DNA of 12,127 nt, from positions 1-12,127 of the forward strand of contig DAOVRJ010000050.1 in assembly GCA_030628225.1 (NCBI GenBank), read 5' to 3'. Position 1 is the first letter of the stretch. Every line of letters begins with the position of its first letter. Origin of the DNA: Candidatus Zixiibacteriota bacterium (GTDB taxonomy: Bacteria; SM23-81). Under the pieces are notes generated by a model. The model saw only the letters and a program-made list of their open reading frames with translations, was not told where the DNA came from and ran no database searches. This document shows positions 1-9,898 of the stretch, piece after piece. A program made the translations under genes and the position numbers.

Positions 1-564
1 AGGGTAACTGGCATTCAGGTGAAGACCGATGATCTGTTTCACGCCGGGGAGGTAGCCAAATCTATTGGTAAATCCTTGGGTTATCCCTATTACACCGTCG
101 ACTGGATGCACATGCATAAGAACCTGTTCTCCTGGATGACCATGGAGAAGTGGGGAATGTTCATCATTCTCAGTCTCATAGTCATCGTGGCCACCTTCAA
201 CATCATCAGTACCCTGATCATGGTGGTCATGGAGAAAACAAAGGACATCGGCATCTTGAAATCCATGGGAGCCACCTCCGGCAGCATCATGCGTATCTTT
301 ATGTTCGAGGGTATACTGGTTGGCTTGGTGGGGACAATTTTGGGGTGTGTGGTGGGCTATCTGATCTGCTGGGCCCAGGAGACGTTCCATTTCTTTTCTC
401 TTCCCGCAGAGATCTATTTTATCAACACCTTACCCATTGAGATGAAGGTGGTTGATTTCACCAAGGTGGCTTTGGCCGCCATGGGGCTCTGTTTTTTAGC
501 CACCGTATATCCGGCTCGCAAAGCAGCCAAGCTGGCTCCAGTGGACGCCATTAGCTATGAGTGA
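1..564 (+). CDS. lolC: LolC/LolE-family lipoprotein-release ABC transporter permease (5'-truncated)
   Basis: This is the C-terminal 187 residues of an inner-membrane permease; the reading frame is open from base 1 and the start lies outside the window. Three hydrophobic segments are visible, at about visible residues 51-76, 99-124 and 153-170, the FtsX-like core typical of LolC/LolE. Between the first two lies the conserved cytoplasmic coupling segment (EKTKDIGILKSMGAT). The protein ends with the family's signature tail, [18 protein letters not shown]. In the Lol system such a permease extracts mature lipoproteins from the inner membrane using ATP hydrolysed by LolD. The next gene encodes LolD and overlaps this one by 8 bases, which fits the assignment. 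The visible part cannot tell LolC from LolE or from a single hybrid permease (LolF type), so the symbol is provisional. A MacB-like permease is less likely given the tail motif. Confidence 0.9.
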   Translation, partial: RVTGIQVKTDDLFHAGEVAKSIGKSLGYPYYTVDWMHMHKNLFSWMTMEKWGMFIILSLIVIVATFNIISTLIMVVMEKTKDIGILKSMGATSGSIMRIFMFEGILVGLVGTILGCVVGYLICWAQETFHFFSLPAEIYFINTLPIEMKVVDFTKVALAAMGLCFLATVYPARKAAKLAPVDAISYE

Positions 565-1291
565 TCCCAGATCAAAGAGGCCACGTTTCGAACAGGCCCA
601 GATTTTGCTGCAAGCTGGGGATGTACACAAGAGCTATCAATCGGGGGCAAGTCGTCTGGATGTCCTGAGGGGAGTCAATCTGGATATCCGTCGGGGGGAA
701 ATTCTGGTAATCATGGGAGCTTCCGGGGCGGGTAAGAGCACGCTGTTGCACATTCTGGGTGCGCTGGACCGTCCCACCCGAGGGACGGTGAGACTGGATA
801 ACACTGAAATTTTCTCCCTTTCGGATGAGAAACTGGCTCGCGTGCGCAATAGAACGGTGGGATTTATCTTTCAATTTCACCATCTATTGCCGGATTTCAC
901 CGCCGCTGAGAATGTAGCCATGCCTCTGCTGATCAATGGTCAGAGCCCCGGAGCAGCTCGGGATGCTGCTCTCCAACTGCTGCGGGAAGTGGGGTTGGGT
1001 AGGTGCATGGACCAGAAACCTGGCCAGCTTTCCGGGGGAGAGCAGCAGCGAGTGGCTGTGGCTCGAGCCCTGATCAACAGTCCTTTGATCATCCTGGCAG
1101 ATGAGCCCTCGGGTAATTTGGACAGAGCCAACAGCGAGATGCTTCACGAGCTTATTTGGCAACTCAGTCGGTCAAAAGATCAGGCCTTTGTCATCGTGAC
1201 ACATAGTGAAGAACTGGCTGCCAGGGCTGATCGTATTCTCCGTCTATCAGAAGGACAACTGCAGCCCGAGACCTTATCGTCGAGGACATAA
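557..1291 (+). CDS. lolD: Lipoprotein-releasing ABC transporter ATPase LolD
   Basis: The 244-residue ATP-binding subunit is close to the usual LolD length of about 230. All nucleotide-binding motifs are intact: Walker [10 protein letters not shown] at 54-62, Q-loop Gln106, signature LSGGEQQR at 158-165, Walker B ending in ADEP at 181-184, D-loop GNLD at 186-189 and switch His216. The stretch [16 protein letters not shown] after the Q-loop is characteristic of the LolD/MacB/FtsE branch. With the upstream permease it should power lipoprotein release from the inner membrane. The ATG lies inside the end of the permease gene, in TATGAGTGA, with only a weak ribosome-binding site, so translation is probably coupled to the upstream gene. 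Its TAA stop shares one base with the mcsA start. Confidence 0.95.
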
Positions 1292-1821
1292 TGCTCTGCG
1301 AAAATTGTGGTGAAAAGAAGGCCGAGTTTGATTACATTCAGATGGAGAAGAACAAGAAGACCATCTTGCACCTCTGCTTGGATTGTGCACGAAAGAAGGG
1401 TTTTAAGAATCTTCTCCCCAGCAGCAATCTTATCGTGGGAAACATCCTGGCCGGTTTTCTTAAGGAAGGCGAGGCAAAAAGCACCAGTACCATGCCCAAG
1501 CTGAAATGTTCAGGATGTGGCCTTTCGTATGGGGAATTTCGCCGGCATGGACGGTTGGGATGTAGCCGGTGCTATGACGCCTTTTTCGACAACTTAAAGG
1601 ATCTGCTGCGTAGAATTCATGGGAGCAACGACCATGTGGGCAAAGCGCCTCATTCCTCCCAGGAAAGATTTTTAATTCGCCGGGAGCTCAGTCGGCTGCA
1701 CCGGGAGATGAGAAGAGTGGTGGAGAGAGAGGAGTTTGAGAAGGCCGCCGTTCTGCGAGATCAGATTCGAAAGCTGGAGCAAATAGGGACCGAAAAGATC
1801 AACCCGGGAGGTAAACCGTGA
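1291..1821 (+). CDS. mcsA: McsA, zinc-binding activator of protein-arginine kinase McsB
   Basis: This 176-residue protein carries four CxxC pairs (Cys3/6, Cys29/32, Cys73/76, Cys91/94) forming two predicted treble-clef-like zinc sites. A C-terminal UVR motif helix follows at about 131-166 (core EEFEKAAVLRDQIRKLE). This layout matches McsA, about 185 residues in Bacillus, which binds and activates McsB. The ATG shares its A with the lolD stop (TAATG), and a GAGGA Shine-Dalgarno sits 4 bases upstream, so the gene is probably read as part of the same message. The end overlaps the mcsB start by 4 bases. In Firmicutes mcsA usually follows ctsR; here it follows a lipoprotein exporter gene. A generic UVR-domain protein is the alternative, but the mcsB-clpC neighbours make McsA nearly certain. 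Confidence 0.93.
   Translation: MLCENCGEKKAEFDYIQMEKNKKTILHLCLDCARKKGFKNLLPSSNLIVGNILAGFLKEGEAKSTSTMPKLKCSGCGLSYGEFRRHGRLGCSRCYDAFFDNLKDLLRRIHGSNDHVGKAPHSSQERFLIRRELSRLHREMRRVVEREEFEKAAVLRDQIRKLEQIGTEKINPGGKP
1805..1812 (+). promoter_or_regulatory. Shine-Dalgarno of mcsB that fixes a GTG start
   Basis: A strong GGGAGGT sequence at 1806-1812 lies 5 bases before GTG at 1818. It supports GTG as the true mcsB start and places it in a GTGA overlap with the mcsA stop. Confidence 0.8.
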
Positions 1822-2921
1822 CCGTGGAGGAATTGGTCAAGGAACCGGCATCGTGGCTGGACGGATCCGGGCCCATGTCCAGCGTCGTGCTCAGCAGTCG
1901 CGTGCGGTTGGCCAGGAACCTGAAGGCGTATTCCTTCACCAATCGTTCCCAGGATTCGGAGTTAGCAAAGATTCTGGATCAATTCAGCCGGGTGGTCAAG
2001 GAGAGTACGTTTCTCCGCAAAGGGATGTTGGTTCATATCGGTAAGCTGAAGAAGCTGGAGCGCGATTTTTTGGTGGAACGGCATCTCATCAGCCCTGATC
2101 TGGCCAAGGGGGACAAGAACCAGGGACTCTATGTGGGCGACCGGGAGGCGGTCAGCGTCATGATCAACGAGGAGGACCATATTCGTCTTCAGGCTATGCG
2201 ATCTGGTCTGCAGCTTCGAGAAGCCTGGCAGATCGTCGACCGCATCGACGACGAGCTTAGCAAACATATGGATTATGCCTTCTCGGACCAGTACGGTTAT
2301 CTGACCGCTTGTCCTACCAATGTGGGCACGGGGCTGCGGGCTTCGGTGCTTATTCATCTCCCGGCCTTGGTATTGACCAAAGATATAAATGAGATCCTGC
2401 AGGGAATCGGCCAGGTTGGCCTGGCCGTGCGTGGATTCTATGGGGAGGGAACTGAGGTTTTAGGCAATCTATTCCAGATGTCCAACAGAACCACATTAGG
2501 TCGTTCCGAAGAGGACATCGTTGATGACATCGAGCAGGCCACCCGGAAGATCATCGACTATGAAGAAAATGCTCGAAAGACTCTGTTGACTGATGCCCGG
2601 CCGCAGATCGAGGACAAGATCTGGAGGGCCTTCGGCATCCTGAAAACTGCACGGGTGCTGTCATCCCAGGAGCTGATGAGTCTGATCTCGGCGGTGCGCC
2701 TGGGGGTGGGCTTAAAGATGATCCAGTCCATTTCCATAGCCTCCTTGAACCATTTAATCATGCTGCTGCAGCCTGCCCATCTGCAGAAATGGTTTAATAA
2801 GAAGATGGATGCTGGCGAGCGGGATATAAGGCGGGCGGAGTTGGTTAGGGAGAAATTGACCACTTTGAGCGGCTATGCTGAAGATGATGGCCAGCCAAGA
2901 CAGGGAGGGTCCCTGAGATGA
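1818..2921 (+). CDS. mcsB: McsB, protein-arginine kinase
   Basis: The protein has 367 residues, close to the roughly 360 usual for McsB. It belongs to the phosphagen-kinase fold and transfers phosphate from ATP to arginines of damaged or regulatory proteins, marking them for ClpC. Seen directly: the ATP-site motif SSRVRLARN at 26-34, the catalytic-loop motif NEEDHIR at 117-123 and the CPTNVGTGLRASV block at 165-177 with the conserved Cys165. A C-terminal RDIRRA at 335-340 matches the RDxxRA phospho-arginine allosteric motif described for bacterial McsB. That motif separates it from guanidino-metabolite kinases and implies an intact pArg sensor. The start is GTG, overlapping the mcsA stop; the TGA stop overlaps the clpC ATG. 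No key residue appears lost, so an active enzyme is expected. Confidence 0.95.
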   Translation: MTVEELVKEPASWLDGSGPMSSVVLSSRVRLARNLKAYSFTNRSQDSELAKILDQFSRVVKESTFLRKGMLVHIGKLKKLERDFLVERHLISPDLAKGDKNQGLYVGDREAVSVMINEEDHIRLQAMRSGLQLREAWQIVDRIDDELSKHMDYAFSDQYGYLTACPTNVGTGLRASVLIHLPALVLTKDINEILQGIGQVGLAVRGFYGEGTEVLGNLFQMSNRTTLGRSEEDIVDDIEQATRKIIDYEENARKTLLTDARPQIEDKIWRAFGILKTARVLSSQELMSLISAVRLGVGLKMIQSISIASLNHLIMLLQPAHLQKWFNKKMDAGERDIRRAELVREKLTTLSGYAEDDGQPRQGGSLR

Positions 2922-5305
2922 ACGGTATGTATACCGATAGGGTGAAACGGGTGCTGCAGCTGGCCCGGGATGAAGCAGGCCGGATACATCACAACTATGT
3001 GGGTACAGAGCATCTGCTGCTGGGCATCCTTCGCGAGGGAAGAGGCGTGGCCGCCTCTATCTTGGTCAGCCTTAACGTGGGGTTGGATGAGATTCGTCAG
3101 TCAGTGGAGGAGGCCATCTCCACATCATCTAGCACCTTAACCATAGGCCAGATTCCATTTACATCTCGAGCAAGGCAGGCCATAGACCGGGCTTCCTATG
3201 AGGCTCGGGCTCTGAACTCAAAGCTGGTGGGTACCGAGCATCTTTTGCTGGCCTTGTTGGCCGAAACGAAGGGAGTAGCTGCCCATGTGCTGAGCACCTT
3301 CGAGATTACTTACTCCGATGTGAAAGAAGAGCTGGAGAAAATCATGTCCGGAGAGGATGAAGGCAAGGCGCGCTCCAAAACTCCGGCCTTAGACCATTTT
3401 GGACGCGATCTGACCGAGCTGGCTCGTCAAGATCAACTGGATCCTGTTATCGGGAGAGACAAGGAGGTGGAGAGGGTTTCCCAGATTCTGTCGCGCCGCA
3501 AGAAAAACAATCCCGTGTTGATCGGCGAGCCGGGAGTGGGCAAGACCGCCGTCGTTGAAGGTCTGGCCCAACGGATCGTGGAGAAGAAAGTACCCCACGT
3601 GCTGCAGGATAAGCGCGTGATAGCTATAGATTTAGCGGCTATTGTGGCCGGCACCAAGTATCGCGGGCAGTTTGAGGAACGGCTTAGGGCGGTGATTATA
3701 GAGATAAAAAAGGCTGATAACGTGATCATCTTCATCGATGAGCTGCATACGATCGTGGGCGCCGGGGGCGCAGAGGGTAGCCTGGATGCCTCTAATATTT
3801 TCAAGCCCGCCTTGGCTCGGGGCGAGCTCCAGTGCATAGGCGCCACCACCCTGGACGAGTACCGAAAGCACATCGAGAAAGACGGTGCTCTGGAGAGGCG
3901 ATTTCAGACAATTCTGATAGGCCCGCCCACCAAAGAGGAGACCATCGAGATCCTCATGGGGCTTCGTAAGCGCTACGAGGAGCATCACCGAATAAAAATT
4001 ACCGATGGGGCCATTCGGGCAGCAGCTAATCTCTCGGACCGCTATATCACCGATCGGTATCAGCCGGACAAAGCCCTGGATGTCATCGACGAGGCTGGAT
4101 CCAGAGTACATCTGGCCAGCTGCCGGGAATCCACGGAGATGGTGGAGTTGGAGAAGAAGATCGAGAGTATCAATGAGCAGAAGAGGCACTGTATTAACCG
4201 ACAGGAGTTTGAAAAAGCGGCCCGGATGAGGGATGTCTTGGCCGAGCTGGAGGAGAAGCTGAAGGAGCTTCGCCAGGAGACCTGCGTGGAACTGGACGAG
4301 GAGGACGTGGCTCAGATTGTCTCCGGGATGACCGGAATTCCGGTTTTTAAGCTTGAGGAGAAGGAATCAGCCAGGCTGTTGCGTATGGAGAATGAGCTGA
4401 AAAAGAGAATCATCGGCCAGGAAGACGCCATTTCTGCTGTTTCCAGGGCTATACGACGTTCCCGAGCGGGACTCCATGATGCCAGGCGGCCCATCGGGTC
4501 CTTTATCTTTCTGGGACCCACCGGGGTGGGAAAGACGGAACTGGCCAGGGTGTTGGCCGATTTCCTATTTGAGGACCGGGAAGCTCTGATACGGCTGGAT
4601 ATGTCGGAGTATATGGAGAAGTTCAACGTCTCCAGGTTGGTTGGGGCACCCCCGGGCTATGTGGGATACCAGGAGGGGGGGCAACTGACGGAAAAAGTTC
4701 GCCGTAACCCCTATTCCGTTGTCCTGTTCGACGAAATCGAGAAGGCTCACCCAGATGTCTTCAACATTCTCCTGCAAATCCTGGATGAGGGTCAGCTGAC
4801 GGACAGCTTTGGACGGAAAGTAGATTTTCGGAACACCGTGGTGATCATGACCTCTAACATCGGGACTCGAGAGGTGGGCAAGGGGAAAGGGTTGGGTTTC
4901 CAGAAAGGTGGCCTGGCGACTGGCTTCGACCAGATCAAAGCACGAATTAACGATGCCTTGAAAAAAACATTTAACCCCGAATTTCTCAATCGGATAGACG
5001 AGAGCATTATCTTTCATCCGTTGGGTAAAAAGGAGATATTGAAGATCATCGACATCCTCTTGGTCGATATTGGGGAACGGGTGGCGGAGAAGGGAATGTC
5101 CGTTACGCTGACACGGGAGGCCAAAGAGTTCTTGGTCGAGAAGGGTTTTGACCCTATTTTTGGTGCCAGACCTTTGAGAAGAGCTCTCCAGGTCTATTTC
5201 GAGGATCCCTTGTCAGACGATATACTCCGCGGCAAGTTCAAAGAGGGTAGCAGTATTAAGGTCGGTCGCCGAGGAGATAAGTTGACCTTTAGCCGTCTGG
5301 GTTAA
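2918..5305 (+). CDS. clpC: ClpC-type AAA+ unfoldase of the Clp protease
   Basis: This 795-residue protein has the full ClpC plan. Two Clp_N repeats occupy about 1-145 and should bind phospho-arginine. AAA+ domain 1 has Walker A GEPGVGKT at 203-210 and Walker B IIFIDE at 270-275. A short middle coiled coil with a UVR motif lies at about 405-455 (core [10 protein letters not shown]). AAA+ domain 2 has Walker A GPTGVGKT at 533-540 and Walker B VVLFDE at 601-606. The tripeptide LGF at 659-661 sits where the ClpP-docking loop is expected, so a ClpP partner encoded elsewhere is predicted. The short middle domain excludes ClpB, and ClpA lacks this UVR segment. The ATG at 2918 overlaps the mcsB stop and follows GGGAGGG by 8 bases; ATG at 2927 is a possible but worse-spaced start. 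Confidence 0.96.
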
Positions 5306-5324
5306 AGTTCGGATCATCTATCTG

Positions 5325-5356
5325 AGGGGGGGAGCGGGACATGCTCCCCCTTTGTG
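5325..5356 (+). terminator. GC-rich hairpin after clpC, probable intrinsic terminator
   Basis: GGGGGAGC at 5328-5335 pairs perfectly with GCTCCCCC at 5343-5350 around a 7-base loop. The pairing can extend three more steps (two G-T and one A-T) to 5325/5353. It begins 20 bases after the clpC stop and is followed by TTTGTGTT, a broken T-tract. Termination may therefore be partial, letting some transcripts continue into the tamB-like gene. Confidence 0.65.
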
Positions 5357-5358
5357 TT

Positions 5359-5364
5359 GAGGGA
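5359..5364 (+). promoter_or_regulatory. Shine-Dalgarno of the tamB-like gene
   Basis: GAGGGA ends 7 bases before ATG at 5372. This selects that ATG over the in-frame GTG at 5354, which lies right beside the terminator hairpin and has no usable ribosome-binding site. Confidence 0.75.
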
Positions 5365-5371
5365 ACAGGGA

Positions 5372-8300
5372 ATGAAAGTACGTCTTTGGGTTCTCGTTTG
5401 CGTCCTCATAGCCGCTGTTCTGGGTTTGTCTCTGTATGTAGGCTGGAGATGGATGGGGGTTGGTCAGAGGATGGAAAGCCTCTTTCTGTCGCGGATCACC
5501 GCTCTGTCGGGAGCCCGGGTTCAGGTGAGAGATTTTCATCTGGGTCTTGGTTATGTGCGGTTCGGGGAGATGATCATGGTAGATGAGGAAAGGGGTCTTT
5601 CCCTGACCATTGAGCAGGCGCGCCTTGGTTTTTCCTCGCTCGATTACATTACCAGCGGATTTCGATTCAGAGCTGGCTTCAAGGAGATGCTCATCAGCCA
5701 TCCGCAGCTGAGGGTGGATCTGGACCGGTTTCTCTTGGCCCGGAGGAGTGGTTCTGCCGCGTCTCTCCCTCTTAACGTTAACTTGCCAGAGCGCATTACC
5801 ATAGTCAAAGGTTCTGTCGTTCTGGTGAAAGTCGGTGACCATCGCCGCAGCGAGATCACCGAGTTCGATGGCTGGCTGGAGATGACCGGGGGCCAGAGGA
5901 GCAGTTTCCGGCTGACCGGTTGCTGGGGAGGACAGGGGACTAAGAACCTGCTGGTCTCCGGGACTTTGGATTCCCAATTGGAGATTTTATCCCTGCAGGC
6001 TGAGCTCAAAGAGGCCAACCTGGCCCAGGTGCTGGGTCCGGTTCTTCCAACCCGGTACACCATTGATGGGGGTCTATTACGGTTCTCTATGATCGTTGAC
6101 AGAGGTCCTCAAGCCCGGGAGTCAAAAGTGCTGGGCAGCTTAGAGCTGGAAGCCAGCAGTTTGGTTGATGAGGGGCTGGATATTCGTTTGGAAGATCTGT
6201 GGGCCCGGGCACGCCTGGATGGGATGGACCTGGCAGTGGAGGGAATCGAGGCCAGAACAGGTGGAGGAAAGGTGCAGGTCCATGGCCGGATTATCAATCT
6301 GCCCCGGCCGACCTTCCACCTGAGCATGGAGGCCAGTGGTCTGAAGACGGAACAGATGCTGTTGAAGATCCTCGGGGAGGACCACGAATACATGCCCTAT
6401 GGGTCCGTGGACCTGAGAGGAGAATTAGAGGGTTCCGGGAAAAACCTGGTTTTTCAGGGCAGGCTTAGCGCAAGGCAGTTAGCGGTTTCTGGCCACCGTC
6501 TGGACGACCTCAGGGCCAGCATGAAGGTCCAGGGTTCCCAGATTCAGGTGAGCGGGTTGAGGGTCAGGCTGCCCTGGGCTGTGCTTGGTTGCCAGGGTAA
6601 GTTGGATATAGCCCAGTCTCCAGCTGCTCTGGAGGCAGAGTGGCGCTTGGAGGAGGTGGATTTAGCAGAGGCTTGCCAGCATCTAGATCTTATTGCTCTG
6701 AAGGGAGAGGGGGTGTTGGCGGGAAGGCTTAGCGGTCCGGTTGGATCGCCTTACCTGAGAGGAGGGTTGCGTCTATCCCGGCTGAAGATGCAGTGGCTGC
6801 CTGTGGAGAAGCTCAACGGTCAGTTTTTTTGGGATGGGAGCCGACTGAGCTATCGGCTGGGGTCGCCGGATGGGCAAGTGGTCTTGGAAGGAGGGGGGAC
6901 GGGCATTTCCAGGAATTCGTCTCATCAGGCGATCCTAAGGGTTTGGAACATACCCCTGAGGGAGATGCTCGGCGGACAAAGGATTGGGGTAAGGGAGGCA
7001 AGATTCTCTGGTCGCTGGATATTCTCTGGCTCGGCAGATCAAGCTAAGATGTTTGGGGAATTGGAATTGGAGAGAGACACTGGTGCGAAGGGATGTTTCC
7101 ATAGCTGGGCCGAGCTCTCCCGTCAGCAGGAGGATCGGTGGTGTTTGCAGGTGAAGACGATCTCGCCGGACTGGGAGGTTCGCGGGATTCCCATGGCGCT
7201 GAAAATCAATTTTTCCCTGGATGGCCAGCGGTTACAATTAAGAGAATTGAACTTCAACGATCAACTGAAGATGTTTGGGGTGATGGAGAGGGATGATCGG
7301 CGGAGATTGAGCGGCCAGTTGACCTTTTCCCGGGTGGATGCCCGATGGCTCTGCGGGCTTCTTTCCACAACCGTGGCGACGAATCAGCTGGAAGGTCTCA
7401 TCTCCGGTCGGGTGCAGCTGGCCGGTACCACGCGGAGCCCGGAAGCATGGGGCCATATTGAGGGAATCCACGGTCGCCTGGCCCGATTAGACGACATGTC
7501 TTTGCAGGTTCCACTGAGACTGAAGCAGGGCACTTTATATCTGGGATCATCTCTGCTGAGTCGTCAGGATAAGCGACTGATGGTTCTGAATGGGAAGATT
7601 GATGCTGGGGGAGCATTTTCCATCCAGACGTGGGGAGAGCAGATCGAGGCGAAGACCTTGGCCCGGTTGTTCAAGCGGATATCCCCGGAGATGGAGGGAC
7701 TGTTGAGTTATCAGTGTCGCCTTGAGGGCTCAACTCTTTCTCCCGTTATCGAGGGGCAGTTGCATTGGGTTCAGGGACAGCTGAGGATGATGAAATTTGA
7801 CGATTTTTGGGTCTGTTTCAGGGGCCAGAAAAACCAACTTAAATTAGAGCAACTTTCCATGGTTAAAAAGGGTCAGCGCCAAATTTCCATCACCGGTTCC
7901 GTTCCGTATGCCTTTTTGGGTTTTAACAGAAAGCCCGGTCAGGAAGAGGAATTGGATCTGTCTGTTCGGGTGGAGGGCGATGTGCTCTCATTGTTGCCCT
8001 CTTTTACCTCTCAGGTTAAGAAGGCCAGCGGGTATGGAGAGGCCAGTTTCCGGTTGGGGGGAGGTCCCGGTTCTCTGGTTCTGGGCAGCGGTCGGTTGCG
8101 ATTGCGGAGGGGATGGATAGAGCCGATGATTCTGGTCAAGAGGCTGGAGAATCTCAATGGGTGGGTGGAGATCGACGAGGAAGACCATTTTGCCCGGATA
8201 AAAGAGCTGACCGGTGCTATAGAAGGTAATTCTTTAGAGGTGGTCAATTTCCGAAAATTGAGCCGGGGTCGCCGCAGGTTGGAATCTCTCCGAATTCCTG

Positions 8301-9595: not shown

Positions 9596-9612
9596 TTTCT
9601 GACAATAATTAT

Positions 9613-9617
9613 GGAGG
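9613..9617 (+). promoter_or_regulatory. Shine-Dalgarno that sets the rpmA start
   Basis: GGAGG lies 5 bases before ATG at 9623. It overlaps an in-frame upstream ATG at 9611, which therefore cannot be the normal start. The chosen start gives the canonical L27 N-terminus MAHKKG. Confidence 0.85.
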
Positions 9618-9622
9618 TTGCT

Positions 9623-9898
9623 ATGGCACACAAGAAGGGTGTGGGAAGCTCCCGTAACGGAAGGGATAGTGCTGGACAGAGATTGGGCGTCAAGCGCTTT
9701 GCAGGTCAGAGGGTTACGGCGGGGAGTATTCTTGTTCGACAGAGGGGAACTAAGATCCATCCCGGCAACAACGTGGGATTGGGGAGCGATGACACCTTGT
9801 TCGCCAAGATAGATGGTGTGGTCACCTTTGAACCCAAGGGGCGCCGTCTAAAGCAAGTAAGCGTTTATGTTGTTGCCCCACCCAGTGGCGGGTCGTAA
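9623..9898 (+). CDS. rpmA: 50S ribosomal protein L27 (bL27)
   Basis: This 91-residue basic protein opens with [16 protein letters not shown], the conserved N-terminus that reaches into the peptidyl-transferase centre. It continues with the family motifs [40 protein letters not shown] and VTFEPKGRR. It starts directly with MAHKKG, so it lacks the short cleavable N-terminal extension seen in Firmicutes L27 (removed by Prp). This agrees with a non-Firmicute host despite the mcsAB-clpC genes. The gene has its own promoter and intrinsic terminator and appears monocistronic. The usual upstream partner rplU (L21) is absent, and no obgE follows. Confidence 0.97.

Follow-up and report, generated by a model that had tools for sequence, protein, structure and literature searches.

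The first five genes of the window, which join a lipoprotein-releasing ABC transporter to the arginine-phosphorylation (pArg) quality-control proteins McsA, McsB and ClpC, are probably the local copy of an ancient diderm housekeeping superoperon, inherited mostly by vertical descent, that would give growth-linked, CtsR-free expression of McsAB-ClpC. Directly established are the order and tight spacing of the genes, the recurrence of this order across phyla, the absence of CtsR, and the intact signatures of the pArg kinase, ClpC and phosphatase. The window is a whole contig of 12,127 bases from the genome of an uncultured diderm, 2.34 Mb in size and 92% complete, and its gene calls are mechanical.

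Organization of the array and its pArg components

The 3′ part of lolCE is followed on the same (+) strand by lolD, mcsA, mcsB and clpC (Table 1), and the coordinates bear out the order and the successive overlaps of 8, 1, 4 and 4 bases that had been read from this DNA in the original prediction. Stoichiometric co-expression had also been put forward as likely; tight co-transcription is likely, but overlaps alone do not establish that it is stoichiometric. Judging from the spacing and the lack of promoter-like sites, the genes would be read as a single message, with one sigma-70-like site found in positions 1-6000 against 3.7 expected by chance, and no CIRCE site near the array. In a genome of the sister genus (G001), the order is tyrS-prfB-lysS-lolCE-lolD-mcsA-mcsB-clpC-tamB-like, and the array thus extends beyond the upstream edge of the window. 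Not every overlap is conserved exactly, since G001 has a gap of +11 at the lolD-mcsA junction; of 39 direct lolD-mcsA junctions from other genomes, 15 overlap, and the median gap is 8 bases.

Table 1. Features of the array and its downstream edge (positions in the window)
Feature	Position	Strand	Evidence and remarks
lolCE, C-terminal 187 aa, lipoprotein-releasing ABC permease	1..564	+	TIGR02212 E 7e-60, FtsX domain; gene truncated by contig start
lolD, ATPase of lipoprotein-releasing ABC transporter	557..1291	+	TIGR02211 E 2.5e-85
mcsA, protein-arginine kinase activator, zinc-type CxxC pairs and UVR motif	1291..1821	+	NF053706 E 1e-41
mcsB, protein-arginine kinase, GTG start	1818..2921	+	NF002194 447.5 bits
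clpC, AAA+ unfoldase, two N-domain GTEH glutamates and LGF ClpP loop	2918..5305	+	Solved ClpC structures
Hairpin then U-rich tract, probable terminator between clpC and TamB-like gene	5327..5351	+	Conserved in sister genus G001
Putative TamB-like protein, about 1,375 aa	5371..9499	+	Beyond the array, after the hairpin; same place in G001

Family assignments differ in how they stand to the curated cut-offs. The lolCE fragment is 89% identical to the full-length gene of G001, which scores 379.9 bits against the TIGR02212 cut-off of 362. LolD, at 285.5 bits, falls slightly below the TIGR02211 cut-off of 307.75, and McsA, at 142.8 bits, below the NF053706 cut-off of 210; 164 residues of McsA align to a solved McsA (8wtb_B, E 3e-29), and its UVR motif is PF02151. 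McsB exceeds its cut-off of 385 bits and matches the solved McsB 6tv6 (E 5e-98), while ClpC aligns over its full length to solved ClpC/MecB chains (E 4e-275). The LolCE permease and the LolD ATPase lie side by side, as in a Lol exporter. No match to LolA (PF03548) was found in the 92% complete genome, although the gene could lie in the missing 8% or have diverged too far to match, and the name LolCE-LolD is therefore given by sequence family only. This combination would fit a carrier that has diverged, a carrier gene on a missing contig or an exporter that works without LolA.

Judged by sequence, the signature residues of the kinase, ClpC, ClpP and a YwlE-like phosphatase are intact in the window's genome. 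The catalytic region of McsB conserves NEEDH, C165 and E210, and its residues 335-340, RDIRRA, fit RDxxRA, which we take to be the C-terminal pArg-site motif of McsB. The two ClpC glutamates are presumably equivalent to E32 and E106 of B. subtilis. ClpP is encoded beside clpX, and the YwlE-like low-molecular-weight (LMW) phosphatase has the P-loop CTGNTCRS, a type in which the threonine directs phosphoarginine specificity in YwlE and PtpB (PMC8001253). This phosphatase lies within a 384-aa open frame (L173:1456-2610, minus strand) and is perhaps fused to another domain.

Downstream of clpC, the GC-rich hairpin and U-tract have a counterpart in G001 at about 6372-6403 of locus L017 (minus strand), though the window's copy is missing from the list of a generic terminator scan. 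Because the hairpin is kept in both the window and G001, clpC is probably the last gene of the array in this lineage. The next open reading frame opens at GTG 5354, with a signal-like sequence beginning at ATG 5371, and its putative identity as TamB-like comes mainly from its position and from a weak and short match to NF047952 (E 2e-8), Pfam giving no match for this protein. Further downstream, a gene labelled by BLAST as rpmA (ribosomal protein L27) occupies 9611-9898, and rpmA, again by BLAST label, stands directly 3′ of clpC in loci L034 and L035 (one from Zixibacteria, the other from a near relative).

Recurrence across phyla and nested versions of the locus

A survey of mcsB neighbourhoods, as the original prediction had proposed, finds lolCE and lolD beside mcsB in many distant phyla, so that the adjacency is clearly not one of very close relatives alone. 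One genome per GTDB species was scanned with an McsB alignment, yielding 80 named loci that were chosen and ranked by similarity to the window's McsB, and the following phylum counts hold for this named set only. Counting lol genes up to five same-strand genes upstream of mcsB, adjacency was found in 12 of 13 Omnitrophota and 9 of 10 Gemmatimonadota, and Fibrobacterota, Zixibacteria, Eisenbacteria, Latescibacterota, Cloacimonadota and Auribacterota, with one locus each, all showed it; the counts were 0/29 for Bacillota, 1/8 for Planctomycetota and 0/3 for Verrucomicrobiota. The closest named McsB relatives, which include Fibrobacteres, Zixibacteria and Eisenbacteria MAGs, are 49-55% identical to the window's protein, and a scan of viral contigs gave no McsB relative.

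A second survey searched 386 genomes across the domain, selected without regard to gene order, and found McsB in 142. One locus per family was taken from the stronger McsB matches, with L036, L037, L090 and L132 omitted because they hold no clean McsB frame. Among the 67 non-Bacillota McsB-positive families, lol lies upstream in 42 and bamA downstream of clpC in 30, with either present in 50 and both in 22; several loci in the remainder are interrupted by contig ends. In this sample, adjacency is thus the common state outside Bacillota. Such recurrence in many distant two-membrane phyla marks the array as an ancient shared order and not a local accident. The literature that we searched has no account of such a supercluster, and since most subscription papers lay outside the search, a prior report is possible.

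In full, the array reads prfB-lysS-lolCE-lolD-(aminotransferase)-mcsA-mcsB-clpC-bamA-ompH-lpxD-(lpxC/fabZ), of which E. coli retains prfB-lysS. In the Omnitrophota/PVC type, a class-IV aminotransferase separates lolD from mcsA (for example, L046:8539-9408 and L024:8299-9177). Directly after clpC, the Omnitrophota locus L046 continues at 13499-17084 with mlaE, an ABC ATPase and mlaD, followed by a radA/sms-like gene; in Bacillota, too, a frame about as long as radA, not identified by family, lies 3′ of clpC.

Nested versions emerge from 40 loci around lolCE in genomes where the McsB search found none. Many read prfB-lysS-lolCE-lolD-bamA-ompH-lpxD without clpC, while 14 of the 40 keep clpC, mostly as lysS/prfB-lolCE-lolD-clpC-bamA. 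The ClpC proteins of these McsB-negative loci are 49-58% identical to that of the window, and on a quick ClpC tree the McsB-negative label requires three changes. Loci that lack mcsAB, or mcsAB-clpC, are accordingly nested versions of one array, and of its quality-control proteins ClpC is kept more constantly than the kinase. As a marker of pArg-dependent ClpC, the pArg-site glutamates fail, since both are conserved in 81/81 non-Bacillota McsB-positive and in 13-14 of 14 McsB-negative proteins. The McsB tree broadly follows phyla, with lol adjacency on both the FCB side and the Omnitrophota/PVC side; like the ClpC tree, it is a quick tree with weakly supported deep nodes and no inferred root.

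The contrast originally drawn with the Bacillus-type ctsR-mcsAB-clpC arrangement is correct, as no CtsR match (PF05848) was found in the window's genome (G000). Across the 386 genomes, CtsR occurs in 7 against 142 for McsB, whereas it occurs in 142 of 149 genomes of the Bacillota-type phylum around G198. Within that phylum, 23 genomes with three or fewer contigs and a class-II lysS were compared by hand for gene position, and lysS lies upstream of ctsR, on the same strand and within 25 kb, in 11. An rRNA operon intervenes in two retrieved cases, a single small gene separates lysS from ctsR in L101, and L218 reads directly lysS-ctsR-mcsA-mcsB-clpC, with a 161-aa frame at the place of CtsR. The same slot in Bacillota thus runs lysS, an rRNA operon in some cases, then ctsR-mcsA-mcsB-clpC. 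These results rest on genomes other than the named Bacillus subtilis control, which gave no match for McsB (PF00217) or CtsR, contrary to what is known of the species. A survey of Actinomycetota places clpC near lysyl-tRNA synthetase (PMC10149685), and the linkage of lysS to clpC in Bacillota, Actinomycetota and diderms is thus common to monoderm and diderm lineages, with either lolCE-lolD or ctsR in the gap.

Origin of the gene order

The superoperon that we regard as the probable source of the array runs prfB-lysS-lolCE-lolD-(aminotransferase IV)-mcsA-mcsB-clpC-bamA-ompH-lpxD. Transcribed as one message, it would have McsA, McsB and ClpC made in step with genes for translation and outer-membrane assembly, making their expression growth-linked, with no CtsR heat-shock switch. 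Arginine marks placed by McsAB would send damaged proteins to ClpC-ClpP for degradation, with general substrates and no special lipoprotein aim. The Bacillota lysS-(rrn)-ctsR-mcsA-mcsB-clpC order would be the same ancestral locus, with ctsR replacing lolCE-lolD. This origin is favoured by recurrence in the named phyla and in 42 of the 67 families, by the nested states without mcsAB or mcsAB-clpC, by the grouping of McsB by phylum, by the rarity of CtsR, by the lysS-ctsR linkage and the lysS-clpC vicinity in Actinomycetota, and by the presence of ClpP and phosphatase. Against it, the conserved terminator-like hairpin splits clpC from the downstream envelope gene in the window's lineage, the weak deep nodes and lack of an inferred root leave gain or loss of lolCD and mcsAB undecided, and selection often lies behind an order conserved at such a distance, so a real functional link may exist. 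A further step, which we offer tentatively and hold at somewhat less than even likelihood, is that mcsAB-clpC already lay inside an ancestral bacterial envelope-biogenesis locus. The Gram-positive ctsR-mcsA-mcsB-clpC operon would then be a remnant of this locus in bacteria that lost the outer membrane, ctsR having replaced the lol genes and growth-linked expression having given way to a heat-shock switch.

A functional link could take the form of an envelope-related job for ClpC itself, such as the cytoplasmic clearance of LolCE that has failed to assemble, of BamA precursors or of other secretory precursors, which would select for its place between lolD and bamA and leave McsAB as an optional adaptor. 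We consider this unlikely. The 14 McsB-negative lolCE loci that keep clpC, in most cases with lolD before it and bamA after it, are consistent with such a job, as are the 30 of 67 families in which bamA follows and the mlaE, ABC ATPase and mlaD genes after clpC in L046. However, lysS-lolCE-lolD-bamA occurs without clpC in many McsB-negative genomes, lysS is also a recurrent neighbour, with no envelope role, and the ClpC of monoderm Bacillota functions without an outer membrane.

The original prediction proposed that pArg-dependent control deals with export defects; McsAB would then mark, for ClpCP, Lol subunits that are damaged or lipoprotein precursors that are mislocalised. The close lolD-mcsA adjacency across the 39 genomes with a median gap of 8 bases, together with the presence of kinase, unfoldase, protease and phosphatase, would suit a dedicated surveillance of this kind, but it is improbable and not specifically supported. 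In many genomes, lol, clpC and bamA stay together while mcsAB is absent; lolD and mcsA are parted by the aminotransferase in loci of the Omnitrophota/PVC type; the unrelated lysS, prfB and class-IV aminotransferase genes share the array; mcsAB lies away from lol in most sampled Planctomycetota and Verrucomicrobiota; and no LolA match was found in the window's genome. The lol/pArg gene order is shared and ancient, and a dedicated working partnership with lipoprotein export is possible, with specific evidence against it.

Horizontal transfer of a mobile lol-mcsAB-clpC cassette might account for odd placements in the McsB tree, such as the Planctomycetales-labelled MAG L086 inside Omnitrophota (which may be a labelling error), but is very improbable, given that the tree otherwise groups largely by phylum and that the prfB-lysS and bamA-ompH-lpxD anchors, which a cassette would not carry, are identical on both sides. 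Simple operon drift in the window's lineage, originally put forward as the null, has nothing in its favour beyond the general frequency of gene shuffling and is rejected by the cross-phylum survey, where the same order is found in many phyla.

Significance and comparison with known systems

Published accounts present arginine-phosphorylation quality control as a system of Gram-positive bacteria (PMC8370763) and ClpC as not typical of Gram-negative ones (PMC10128030). In the present case, a pArg system with intact signatures and without CtsR lies within the locus for outer-membrane assembly in many uncultured diderm phyla. This placement makes three points testable: the role of McsAB-ClpC in diderms, whether its expression there is growth-linked, and whether the Gram-positive stress operon is the fossil of an outer-membrane locus. 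The last of these matters for the debate on diderm-to-monoderm transitions.

Among known systems, the Bacillota ctsR-mcsA-mcsB-clpC heat-shock operon resembles the window in its mcsA-mcsB-clpC order and signature residues, and often lies downstream of lysS. It differs in having ctsR where the window has lolCE-lolD, with no CtsR in the genome. The diderm outer-membrane locus lysS-lolCE-lolD-bamA-ompH-lpxD has the same anchors and order as the present array, where mcsA-mcsB-clpC stands after the lol genes and before those for the envelope; in the window's lineage, the putative TamB-like gene, after the terminator-like hairpin, takes the place that bamA has in other diderm loci. The large conserved outer-membrane locus of diderm Firmicutes likewise clusters envelope biogenesis genes, including tamB/bamA/skp, in a paper that makes no mention of clpC, mcsB or lysS (PMC5007114). 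In the Actinomycetota neighbourhood, clpC is near lysyl-tRNA synthetase, as it is here, while lol genes are not reported and mcsB occurs in the reference list only (PMC10149685).
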